Below the pieces are notes generated by a model that saw only the letters and a program-made list of their open reading frames with translations, was not told the origin of the DNA and did not search any database. Source: Butyrivibrio sp. (GTDB lineage Bacteria; Bacillota; Clostridia; Lachnospirales; Lachnospiraceae). From it: DNA of 64,000 nt. The stretch is taken from NCBI GenBank assembly GCA_016291375.1, contig JAEEXE010000005.1, positions 1 to 64,000 of the forward strand, in the 5' to 3' direction. A program made the translations under genes and the position numbers. Shown here in pieces: positions 29,919 to 31,881 of this stretch (positions within the stretch are counted from its first letter, which is position 1; each line of letters starts with the position of its first letter).

Positions 29919-31013
29919 TCATACCAAAGATATGACCCATCCAAATATAGGTGACAACGCCATCATAACGATTGAGAAGGTAAAAGAATTGATTGATACA
30001 AGTGTTGCACGTTGCTCAGAAGGGATCATGGTATTTAGATGTACATCGCTTCTGACACAAAGCACGGTATCCGAAAAAGAACCTATCATTCCGCCTATTA
30101 TCATGAGATAACAATTTCCCGTAAACATAGAGACAATAGCAATTATTACGCCTATAATTCCGATCTTACAGACAAGTTCAAATCTGCTCCCTGCCATGTG
30201 TTTTGCTACAAACGCTCCAATAACGGCTCCCATTCCCATAATAAACAGCGCCGGTCCAAGCAGTATTTGAGGCAATCCGACAAGAGGAAGCTTAGCCTGC
30301 AAAAAGAATAGAATAAGCGTCGCCGATGCTCCTACCACTGCGTTAAGTATGATAATAAGCCTTGCTTCTCTGTTCCCTCTGATAAATGAAGCGCTCTTCT
30401 TAGCGACCTCTACAAATCTTTTTTTAATGTTTGTTTCCTTGAAAAGATCCGTCTCTACCTCTTTTAAGGATAGCGCCACCGCAACACATAGCATTCCTAT
30501 AAACACATCGATCGCATACGCTCTTTTGTATCCAAGCATCAATGCAACACCAGCAAGAAGCGTTGCAATTGAACTTGTAATCTTATAGACCACCATATCC
30601 GCTGAGGCGAATCCGTCATATTCTTTTTCTATACCAGCTTCCTTAAGACTATCAAAAGCAAGGGCTTCTCTTGTTCCGGATGCCAGATTATAACTAAGGG
30701 CACATGGGATCATTGCAAGTGCGATTATCCAAAACGAATCTGACACGATCATAATGATTCCGGATATTACTGACATGACCCTGGCGGCCACCATTACCTT
30801 CTTTCGTCCAAAGACATCAGCAACAGCTCCCGACGGAACCTCAAATATCATGCTGGCAACATGAAATATGCTTTCCGCAAATCCTATCTCAACCATGGAA
30901 AAGCCTCTCGCCGCAAGAAGCGCAACCCATGAGGCTCCCGCCAGCATCAAAGCTCCCGCTCCGTCCAACAACAATAATTTCTTTATCTGATTTCTCGCAA
31001 TATTTTTATTCAT
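29919..31013 (-). CDS. MFS transporter, probable drug exporter
   Basis: A 364-residue major facilitator superfamily protein. The loop 2-3 motif is visible as GAVADVFGRKKVMVAAR, the N-half core reads EVPSGAVAD, and ten to twelve hydrophobic segments follow. The length is a little short for a 12-span exporter. ATG 31013 is 7 bp after AAGGAG. The leader encodes a 22-residue peptide and two competing stems (31014-31176), which suggests induction by ribosome stalling, a scheme known for several antibiotic efflux and ribosome-protection genes. The substrate is unknown; macrolide-, lincosamide- or phenicol-like compounds are only a guess. Confidence 0.82.
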   Translation of the reverse strand: MNKNIARNQIKKLLLLDGAGALMLAGASWVALLAARGFSMVEIGFAESIFHVASMIFEVPSGAVADVFGRKKVMVAARVMSVISGIIMIVSDSFWIIALAMIPCALSYNLASGTREALAFDSLKEAGIEKEYDGFASADMVVYKITSSIATLLAGVALMLGYKRAYAIDVFIGMLCVAVALSLKEVETDLFKETNIKKRFVEVAKKSASFIRGNREARLIIILNAVVGASATLILFFLQAKLPLVGLPQILLGPALFIMGMGAVIGAFVAKHMAGSRFELVCKIGIIGVIIAIVSMFTGNCYLMIIGGMIGSFSDTVLCVRSDVHLNTMIPSEQRATLVSINSFTFSIVMMALSPIFGWVISLV

Positions 31014-31115
31014 AAAAAAACTCCTTATCTTTTTTGTTCAAAAAATAAGGAGATAAATACGCTTTATAGATGTTGATATAATCTGAATTCACCTAAAAAA
31101 GAGCGCACTATCCCC
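31014..31115 (-). promoter_or_regulatory. Attenuator: competing stems, terminator overlapping the MFS ribosome site
   Basis: Terminator: CTCCTTAT (in 31039-31052) pairs with ATAAGGAG (31021-31028), the stem continuing through U/A pairs, and is followed immediately by T7 (31014-31020) and the start codon. The same 3' arm is the Shine-Dalgarno site, so the stem would also block translation. Anti-terminator: GGGGATAGTGCGCT (31102-31115), which includes the end of the leader ORF and its stop codon, can pair with AGCGTATTTATCTCC (31049-31063), using up the CTCC needed by the terminator. A ribosome stopped early in the leader would favour the open form. Seen in sequence; the mechanism is inference. 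Confidence 0.75.
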
Positions 31116-31176
31116 GTAAACCGCCAAAAAGTTGCCTTTCATCAGATGAATATTGGTTGTTTTCCAGGACATTCAT
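31108..31176 (-). CDS. Leader peptide of the MFS gene (22 residues)
   Basis: An ATG at 31176 preceded by AAGGAAAGGAG (31180-31190) opens a frame that reads MNVLENNQYSSDERQL and then FGGLRG before TAG at 31108-31110. It begins about 28 nt after the predicted transcription start. The last codons lie in the 5' arm of the anti-terminator stem, so the position of a translating ribosome decides which stem forms. The C-terminal Leu-Arg-Gly recalls arginine-containing stall motifs of some drug-sensing leader peptides, but no exact known motif is recognised. Confidence 0.7.
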   Translation of the reverse strand: MNVLENNQYSSDERQLFGGLRG

Positions 31177-31210
31177 GTGCTCCTTTCCTTGAAAAATTAA
31201 ATCTTGATAA

Positions 31211-31239
31211 AGTCTAAAACAATATATGATTTTAGTCAA
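31211..31239 (-). promoter_or_regulatory. Promoter of the leader-MFS transcript (TTGACT-N17-TAGACT)
   Basis: On the minus strand TTGACT (31234-31239), 17 bp, TAGACT (31211-31216), giving a start near 31204 and a leader of about 190 nt before the MFS ATG. A strong promoter with a long structured leader fits attenuation control. Confidence 0.72.
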
Positions 31240-31317: not shown

Positions 31318-31881
31318 ATGTACGCTGAAAAATTAGCAGTTATTTTTCCGGGTATCGGTTACACCCACGACAAGCCTCTTTTATACTATGCAAAAGAGAT
31401 GGCTAGAGAGCATGGGTATAAGATTATCGAAATAACCTACAAATTGCCCTATAAAGCCCACGAAGTAAAGGGAAAAGAAGAAATGATGCATGCGGTCTTC
31501 GATATTGCGCTTAAGCAGACTATCGAGCAGCTCTCACATGTAGAATTTGATAGATACGAGGAAGTGCTCTTTATAGGAAAGAGCATCGGAACCACCATTG
31601 CAGGCTACTATGCTTGGAAAAATGAACTAAATACAACTCAGGTAGTACTCACTCCTGTTGCTGAAACTTTTAAATTCCTCGAGAATGTAAAGGCAATAGT
31701 CTTTCACGGAACGGCTGATGCCTGGTGCGATACTGACCTTGCCAGGAAACAATGCAACGAACTCAATCTTCCGCTTCATGAATTCCAAGGTGCAAACCAC
31801 TCCCTTGAGACAAAAGAGACTATAAAAGACATCAAAAATCTTAAAGTAATATTCAAACAAATAGAGGTCTTTTTGTTTTGA
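31318..31881 (+). CDS. Small alpha/beta hydrolase
   Basis: A 187-residue single-domain hydrolase. The nucleophile elbow GKSIGT (Ser near residue 89), the acid in HGTADAW and the histidine in GANHSLET form a catalytic triad in the expected order. The N-terminal FPGIGYTHDKPLLYYA supplies the oxyanion-hole region. It is preceded by CAGGAGG and is divergent from the MFS gene, sharing its upstream region. The end is only 6 bp from the convergent gene at 31888. The substrate is unknown. Confidence 0.78.
   Translation: MYAEKLAVIFPGIGYTHDKPLLYYAKEMAREHGYKIIEITYKLPYKAHEVKGKEEMMHAVFDIALKQTIEQLSHVEFDRYEEVLFIGKSIGTTIAGYYAWKNELNTTQVVLTPVAETFKFLENVKAIVFHGTADAWCDTDLARKQCNELNLPLHEFQGANHSLETKETIKDIKNLKVIFKQIEVFLF

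Follow-up and report, generated by a model that had tools for sequence, protein, structure and literature searches.

The exporter gene and its upstream region

The DNA analysed here, referred to below as the window, is a stretch of 64,000 nt from Butyrivibrio sp. (assembly GCA_016291375.1, contig JAEEXE010000005.1) which encodes on its minus strand (29919..31013) an MFS transporter of 364 amino acids that matches the Pfam family MFS_1 (PF07690, 3e-14). Distant profile matches suggest that this protein is exporter-like. The NCBIfam models HP1165 (38.9 bits, cut-off 700), TetA(P) (23.7 bits, cut-off 750) and 2A0121 match it far under their cut-offs and the Tet(40) model is absent from its matches, so that it reaches no NCBIfam cut-off for the named MFS resistance families (TetA(P), Tet(40), HP1165). 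For 17 other members of the exporter family, compared by E-values only, the best values for these three families are 1.6e-12, 4.7e-9 and 6.7e-6. Among solved structures, the protein of the window gives weak sequence matches only, to the efflux protein EfpA. A small alpha/beta-hydrolase-like gene (31318-31881), with a weak Pfam match under the cut-off, adjoins the exporter in divergent orientation.

A sigma-70-type promoter, TTGACT-N17-TAGACT, is found upstream of the exporter at 31211..31239 of the minus strand, as a previous sequence-only reading of this DNA had noted. The promoter scan of the whole stretch is near chance (9 promoter-like sequences found versus 6.3 expected), and TTGAC-N17-19-TANNNT recurs 5' of the leader in 26 of the 71 named relatives examined, compared with a mean of 0.3 in shuffles. 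The ribosome-binding site (RBS) of the leader claimed in that reading is likewise present as AAGGAAAGGAG (31180..31190, minus strand), and in the minimum-free-energy fold it is also the 5' arm of a hairpin.

The conserved leader ORF and its two halves

Most of the comparisons described below (helix partners, pN/pS, ribosome footprints, covariation, ORF usage and codon recount) start from 100 upstream regions, corresponding to the window, 80 named relatives and 19 others, some of them near-duplicates. Eight regions with no core by pattern (L079, L083, L084, L085, L093, L104, L111, and L144) and L139, which lacked a start, were left out, and 91 remained.

Two short overlapping ORFs follow the Shine-Dalgarno (SD) sequence of the leader. 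The one proposed originally, with 22 codons (31108..31176, minus strand), an ATG 3 nt from the SD and a peptide ending in FGGLRG, exists but is not the conserved frame. Among 86 leaders, its start appears in eight, one of them that of the window, and in the other seven the frame closes after 7-14 residues; this rarity and shortness led to its rejection as the leader. The conserved leader ORF, MSWKTTNIHLMKGNFLAVYGDSALFFR (31089..31172, minus strand; 27 codons), begins 4 nt later, at a distance of 7 nt from the SD, and lies 38 nt downstream of the promoter. According to the upstream regions read, this frame is the one common across genera, starting as MSWKTCNIHLMKGNNSDLYGDSALFFR... and MTWKTMNIHLMKGNYLCVYGDSALFFR... 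elsewhere. In the comparison of homologs which had been suggested as a check, the stems covary and the leader region is conserved, but the 22-codon ORF is not.

Codons 1-13 of this ORF (31134..31172, minus strand), which read M-x-W-K-x-x-N-x-x-L-x-K-G, are conserved as a peptide. For codons 2-14, the conserved frame has a pN/pS of 0.41 and the two remaining frames have values of 0.86 and 1.25, using pairs at least 60% identical among 80 distinct leaders. This set comprises 84 leaders in total, after leaving out L074 and L137 (extraction cut short) and those with another start, namely the second-type leaders L011, L013, L014, and L066, described below, and the rearranged L105. The most constrained residues are Gly13 (79/80), Leu10 (72/80), Lys12 (71/80), Lys4 (68/80, replaced by Thr, Ile, Arg or Leu in the other 12) and Asn7 (67/80). 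Trp3 stands at 100% in this set because the start was located by TGG at codon 3. In A3, a model-based alignment of 67 leaders picked by similarity, codon 3 is TGG in all 67, and the start codon is ATG in 62, TTG in 4 and GTG in 1; in L139, the Trp is at codon 2. At codons 7, 10 and 13 the third positions are free and the amino acids constrained, and Lys codons 4 and 12 are nearly always AAA. This coding-type constraint, together with the set of start codons, argues for a short translated ORF between the promoter and the exporter gene.

The remainder of the ORF shows a different pattern. The frame closes before codon 24 in 9 of 86 leaders, 8 of them at codon 19, and all 8 early-closing leaders with the GATAGTG motif retain GGGGATAGTGCGC. 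Where the frame stays open through codon 23, as it does in 77 leaders, Gly20 is always GGG (62/62), Asp21 GAT (65/65), Ser22 AGT (68/68) and Ala23 GCG (72/72), without any synonymous change. These figures come from a recount, since a first codon tally fixed the GAT AGT codons by construction, and the core pattern itself could miss leaders with synonymous changes at codons 20-23. The full leaders that it did miss (L084, L104, L111 and L144; three or four such leaders in the recount) show no synonymous change either. The use of single codons from Gly20 to Ala23 therefore indicates that the 3' half of the leader is kept as RNA. Judged by these substitutions, the first 13 codons are conserved as peptide and the remainder as RNA. 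The two parts are held at a nearly fixed distance, as GATAGTG starts exactly 60 nt past the first base of the start codon in 66 of the 69 leaders of the pN/pS set that carry it.

The stop at codon 19, just before the core, is found in L008, L010, L012, L049, L136, L142, L146, and L148. In the first three, inspected by eye, the codons before the stop are TATCTCC-like and form a hairpin with GGGGATA, which would be a local anti-antiterminator. A +1 frameshift considered for L008 and L012 was dropped because other short-ORF leaders carry the motif in frame 0 after the stop.

Three competing helices

The 191-nt leader, the folding of which had been suggested by the sequence-only reading, folds better than each of 200 shuffles (z -4.69), and three mutually exclusive helices covary across homologs: a leader hairpin, an antiterminator, and a hairpin that hides the exporter SD.

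The leader hairpin, overlooked in the previous reading, pairs the leader RBS (31190-31176) with TGCGCTCTTTTTT, around the first T-run; this 3' arm with T6 spans 31095..31107 of the minus strand. In the lowest-energy folds of 91 leaders, the leader end pairs mainly with the RBS in 65, inside the ORF in 23, and with neither in 3, and the ORF-internal partner is often, by eye, the AAAGG of codons 12-13. In the leader hairpin, tested over 21 distinct arms, each arm pairs better with its cognate partner than with that of another homolog (z -3.1 to -4.1). The alternative pairing with codons 12-13 shows weak covariation (z -2.0 to -2.5), and a control ORF segment none (z +0.7 to +1.6). This hairpin probably acts as an anti-antiterminator and possibly as a first terminator; its large loop lies outside the range of the terminator scan.

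The antiterminator pairs GGGGATAGTGCGC (31103..31115, minus strand), which covers the last codons and stop of the 22-codon ORF, as had been described, with GCGTATTTATCTCC (31049..31062, minus strand). The consensus pairing is that of GGGGATAGTGC with GCAYTATCTCC. Its covariation was analysed in 94 leaders with 19 distinct arms, a set from which three GCTATAAGTG-type leaders, four second-type leaders and L139 were left out and to which ten leaders from the class and order scans were added. With one representative per distinct arm, z is -7.05, and none of 10,000 permutations equals the cognate sum. In this test, the 3' arm was selected by its pairing to the exporter SD and not to the 5' arm under test. 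The mean pairing energy of 89 leader pairs is -16.4 kcal/mol for cognate arms, -14.4 for swapped arms, and -7.0 when one arm is shuffled. The helix is also kept with other letters in L131 (GGAGTACTATGC/GCATAGACTCC), L135 (GGGAGGTG/CACCTCCC) and L138 (GGAGTATTGCG/CGCAGTGCTCC). In the 89-pair analysis, the antiterminator was not found as anchored in the three GCTATAAGTG-type leaders and L011. Separately, a third arm set was observed by eye in L009, L057 and L062, with CTATAAGTGCGCCCATTTT / AAAATGGGCATTAT as arms, GCATTATCT/AGGATAATGC as SD hairpin and the leader peptide MGWKTPFLMIxKGxFF.

The third helix, CTCCTTATTTTTT/AAAAAAGATAAGGAG (31021..31052, minus strand), was recovered by the terminator scan and runs into a T7 (31014..31020, minus strand) located between the exporter SD and its ATG, which gives the hairpin a terminator-like form. 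Both this stem and the CTCC that it has in common with the antiterminator (31052-31049) agree with what had been reported. The terminator scan of the whole stretch is near chance (2 terminator-like sequences versus 1.6 expected). Across homologs, the upper stem of the SD hairpin covaries even with the SD pairs left out (z -8.6 to -9.7; 50 distinct arms), and 4-5 of the 5 SD positions are paired in 87 of 90 folded relatives (fewer in L009, L057, and L014). Of 76 SD-led starts at the exporter position, 71 have T6 or more in the SD-ATG spacer, a feature seen in 3 of the 140 SD-led starts found elsewhere in these loci; in the window, the exporter is the only one of 29 SD-led starts with such a run. 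This selection for a T-run after the exporter SD implies that transcription termination is involved as well.

The covariation and the common CTCC argue for a putative hairpin serving as terminator and SD lock and an antiterminator that share an arm and exclude each other. The permutations used one sequence per distinct arm and did not model the phylogenetic tree. No useful consensus emerged from RNAalifold when applied to 11 leaders (-1.03 kcal/mol), an outcome to be expected with alternative helices.

Ribosome position and proposed mechanism

Each leader was also folded with 29 nt barred from pairing, as the footprint of a ribosome whose edge lies about 16 nt from its P-site. Eighty-one leaders were used, after leaving out L074, L137, L105, L009, L057, L062 and the four second-type leaders. 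In truncated transcripts, which end just after the shared arm and before the exporter SD exists, the antiterminator exceeds a probability of 0.5 in 34 of 81 leaders without a ribosome, in 47 to 74 with the P-site at codons 1-12, in 66 at codons 13 and 15, and in 74 at codon 14. The count falls to 10 at codon 16 and to none at codons 17-26, and rises to 13 at codon 27 and 40 at codon 28. In the window, the antiterminator reaches 0.98-0.99 at codons 13-14 and 0.01 without a ribosome, when the leader hairpin takes 0.84. The loss past codon 17 is dictated by geometry alone. What evolution appears to have added is the nearly constant spacing, which would place the antiterminator arm a few bases past the edge of a ribosome at Gly13. 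At equilibrium in the full-length transcript, whichever codon the ribosome occupies, the hairpin over the SD prevails on average (mean SD-free at most 0.13), so that the switch would have to be kinetic, decided during transcription.

According to these data, it is likely that a ribosome-operated attenuator, dependent on ribosome stalling, controls the MFS exporter. The sequence-only reading, which had postulated a leader peptide and exclusive hairpins ahead of this gene, is supported in its logic (by conservation, the covariation of three helices and the T-run) and not in the peptide that it proposed. The transcript would begin with a short leader containing the 27-codon ORF and the three mutually excluding helices seen in the sequence. 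Freely translating ribosomes would pass codon 16 and cover GGGGATAGTGC, blocking the antiterminator, so that the later hairpin would form and transcription would stop at T7, the exporter SD would be hidden, or both. When no ribosome is present, the leader RBS would pair with the leader end, perhaps itself a terminator, and the system would also be OFF. A ribosome that halts somewhere in roughly the first 15 codons, with Lys12-Gly13 or the codon after it as the likeliest place, would occupy the RBS arm or the interior of the leader hairpin and leave GGGGATAGTGC just outside its footprint. This segment, being free, would pair with GCAYTATCTCC, the SD-hiding terminator could not form, and the exporter would be transcribed and translated. 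In the least certain step, the ribosome may be held by a ribosome-targeting compound acting together with the conserved nascent peptide, and the exporter may pump out that compound. A ribosome-targeting antibiotic is a plausible candidate inducer.

Alternative explanations

The same helices could also serve a general translation-stress attenuator, in which any slowing of the ribosome in the first 15 codons would induce the exporter and the constraints would be those of codons and RNA alone, with no role for the peptide. The antiterminator exceeds 0.5 in at least 47 of 81 leaders at every ribosome position from 1 to 15, the AAAGG of codons 12-13 can pair with the leader end with the covariation given above, and Lys4 and Lys12 are nearly always AAA, all of which fit this proposal. 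Furthermore, the available part of PMC4191407 presents the bmrB leader of B. subtilis as a sensor of drugs that target the ribosome, which it detects when they disturb its own translation. We nevertheless regard a peptide without any role as rather doubtful, given that amino acids are constrained at codons 7, 10 and 13 despite free third positions, that all 67 leaders of the model-based alignment have TGG at codon 3, and that both the length of 13 codons and the spacing of 60 nt are fixed or nearly so.

A purely translational attenuator, as in ermC, in which the exporter hairpin would hide the SD only and transcription would not be terminated, agrees with the pairing of the SD in nearly all the folded relatives. 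We know of no translational reason for a T-run in the SD-ATG spacer, and the excess of such runs at exporter starts (71/76 versus 3/140) makes this explanation unlikely.

An attenuator responding to starvation for Trp or Lys, which would control a nutrient transporter, might be suspected from the invariant Trp codon and the conserved Lys codons of the leader, but it is highly improbable: there is a single Trp and no run of regulatory codons, Lys4 is replaced in 12 of 80 distinct leaders, and distant profile matches point to an exporter-like transporter. That the hairpins and ORFs arose by chance because the intergenic DNA is rich in A and T, as the near-chance results of the promoter and terminator scans alone might have suggested, can be practically dismissed, being contradicted by fold stability, leader conservation, pN/pS, helix covariation and T-run selection.

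Distribution and variants of the leader

Relatives of the MFS protein were found in 24 of 150 genomes of the family, and a DNA search with the leader gave matches in nine of these 150. Six of the nine (the own genome, G034, G112, G118, G070 and G003) align over the region of the leader ORF, those in G060 and G006 cover a short part only, and that in G110 is probably due to chance. R1, a sequence-only model of 11 leaders, matches 43 of 397 family genomes at E ≤0.001, with 22 strong matches (1.5e-14 or better), 11 of them outside the model. Twenty of these strong matches precede an MFS gene with a long open frame, while the MFS gene is truncated in G034 and interrupted in G329 (L062).

With a profile built from 18 MFS relatives, 549 relatives were found in named genomes, and the 80 that scored best were retained. 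These 80 belong to Butyrivibrio, Pseudobutyrivibrio, Lachnospira, Roseburia, Blautia, Fusicatenibacter, Eisenbergiella and Agathobacter, and include various Clostridiales or Oscillospiraceae MAGs. R1 matches 78 of these 80 (79 rows, with L127 twice), on the strand of the exporter and upstream of it, and gives no match in L079 and L093. A wider model, R2, built from 67 leaders, matches at E ≤0.001 in 17 of 391 genomes of the class, 19 of 295 of the order and 8 of 299 of the phylum; several of the weak matches are not leaders, and the sole strong match of the phylum scan is the own genome of the window. Presence is patchy, with 3 of 9 other species of the same genus matched among those listed in the order scan. 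Neither the leader nor an MFS relative with at least 30% identity was found in 72,556 plasmid records, where the MFS proteins matched all fell under that level, and none of 4227 Rfam models gave a gathering-score match at the leader of the window and 13 relatives. The literature search, in which few subscription papers were reachable, led to vmlR, mef(E), bmrB and others; it returned no relevant paper with this peptide and, among the entries listed, none on such a leader in these bacteria.

The gene following the leader is nearly always the same. The search by tblastn for the MFS gene was positive in 32 of 35 loci (only partially in L062 and L065), the exceptions being L063, L032 and L153. Other downstream genes (ABC-F, tet, cfr) were considered and rejected, as the inspected leader loci carry the same MFS family or a remnant of it, except L153. 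In this locus, 1.5 kb after the leader contain no MFS match, and the leader peptide is that of L084, where the leader lies 1.7 kb from the exporter. A transposase-like gene, identified by eye, stands between the intact leader and the exporter in L084 (about 690-1920) and probably also in L153.

Several loci show other signs of decay or divergence. Three are decayed copies: in L063 a leader with a deletion precedes a broken exporter, in L032 the leader is intact and the exporter breaks off after about 16 codons, and in L062 the leader precedes the interrupted exporter. In L083 and L085, the R1 match covers a reduced leader, MTWKTVN[LI]HLMKGNV..., which lacks the GGGGATAG core and is separated from the exporter by 91 nt. 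L139, a degenerate leader with an MFS gene, comes from a MAG labelled Treponema, into which its contig may have been misbinned.

A second leader peptide, MNGLGYxPxCSSSSxSKT, with a GGGATTACTGCG-type core, is found in L011, L013, L014/L065, L066 and L176 before a sister MFS clade that is 29-38% identical to the exporter of the window. For L176, the reading covers the core and the end of such a leader. The search pattern for this leader matched 2 of 299 genomes, a lower bound since the pattern wrongly left out one codon choice.

Look-alikes of the leader were also encountered. L064, L067 and L188 contain repeats of the GGGGTAAGTGCGCCCTTTTTTAG kind, many of which lie at the ends of contigs. Weak multi-copy matches, mainly to the 3' half of the leader (G339, G301, G176, G1040, and G1086), were taken for GGGGTAAGTGCGCCCTTTTTTAG-like repeats and not for leaders, the sequence having been read for G339, G301 and G1040 only. 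These repeats resemble the 3' half by their letters and are possibly insertion-sequence ends.

Comparison with known attenuators and significance

In the erm and cat systems, a ribosome that a drug has stalled during translation of a leader peptide causes the hairpins to rearrange and the SD to become accessible. They act mostly at translation, whereas the T-run selected in the leaders described here implies transcription termination too. The efflux gene mef(E) is of MFS type, and this kind of controlled gene is what mef(E)/mel shares with the leader of the window. The erm and cat translational attenuators are cited as such in the portion of PMC4191407 available.

The leader is best read as an attenuator similar to those of vmlR and mef(E), and its peptide as one not yet described. 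The vmlR leader of Bacillus subtilis (Takada et al. 2022, PMC9226507) comprises, according to the accessible part of that study, a short uORF, an anti-antiterminator, an antiterminator, an intrinsic terminator and an SD hairpin, and ribosome stalling on the uORF releases both transcription and translation; the distance of about 16 nt from P-site to ribosome edge is also used there. The helix logic proposed for the window would work alike (anti-antiterminator, antiterminator, terminator, SD hairpin). However, as far as that text describes it, the uORF of vmlR consists of three codons (Met-Ile-Asn), its terminator and SD hairpin are two distinct structures, and the gene under its control encodes an ABC-F protein. 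The leader studied here has instead a 27-codon ORF with a conserved 13-codon peptide, a single hairpin that seems to serve both purposes, an MFS exporter, and an RBS that is an arm of the first helix; a Met-Ile-Asn uORF inside the anti-antiterminator, as in vmlR, is not found in it.

In mef(E)/mel from Streptococcus pneumoniae (PMC4335068), as presented in the part of the paper available, a leader peptide, a Rho-independent terminator and an anti-attenuator pairing precede the efflux gene. Its leader, MTASMRLR, is unrelated to M-x-W-K-x-x-N-x-x-L-x-K-G, which does not match the mef/msr/ermD type (MTxSMRLR) in the portion of Table 3 of the same paper that was compared. Its final stem-loop was considered not to act as a terminator, while the last hairpin of the leader studied here runs into a T-run. 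Moreover, mef elements are mobile, in contrast to the lack of plasmid matches reported above.

The bmrB leader of B. subtilis bmrCD (PMC4191407), in the part of the article available, encodes 53 residues, with the terminator within the leader ORF, and precedes an ABC transporter. The likeness lies in the ribosome-mediated transcription attenuation of a multidrug transporter, with a terminator, an antiterminator and an anti-antiterminator predicted. That part mentions no SD-hiding terminator, whereas the SD-hiding hairpin of the window runs into a T-run.

On a broader view, the leaders may constitute a nascent-peptide sensor family of rumen and gut Clostridia, in which M-x-W-K-x-x-N-x-x-L-x-K-G would arrest the ribosome at Gly13 or the next codon under a specific translation inhibitor and switch on a dedicated MFS exporter, the MNGLGYxPxCSSSSxSKT leader of the sister clade using the same RNA chassis for another compound. 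Taken jointly, we see these proposals as evenly poised between right and wrong. The design is compact, as the RBS of the leader doubles as a switch arm and a single hairpin would be both terminator and SD lock. To our knowledge, the known drug-sensing leader peptides come mostly from Bacilli, streptococci and mobile resistance genes, and the M-x-W-K leader is found in many commensal Clostridia, including Butyrivibrio, Roseburia, Blautia and Fusicatenibacter. If it is a true arrest peptide, it would provide a new peptide for studies of ribosome arrest and a ready reporter for the compounds that these commensals meet and pump out.
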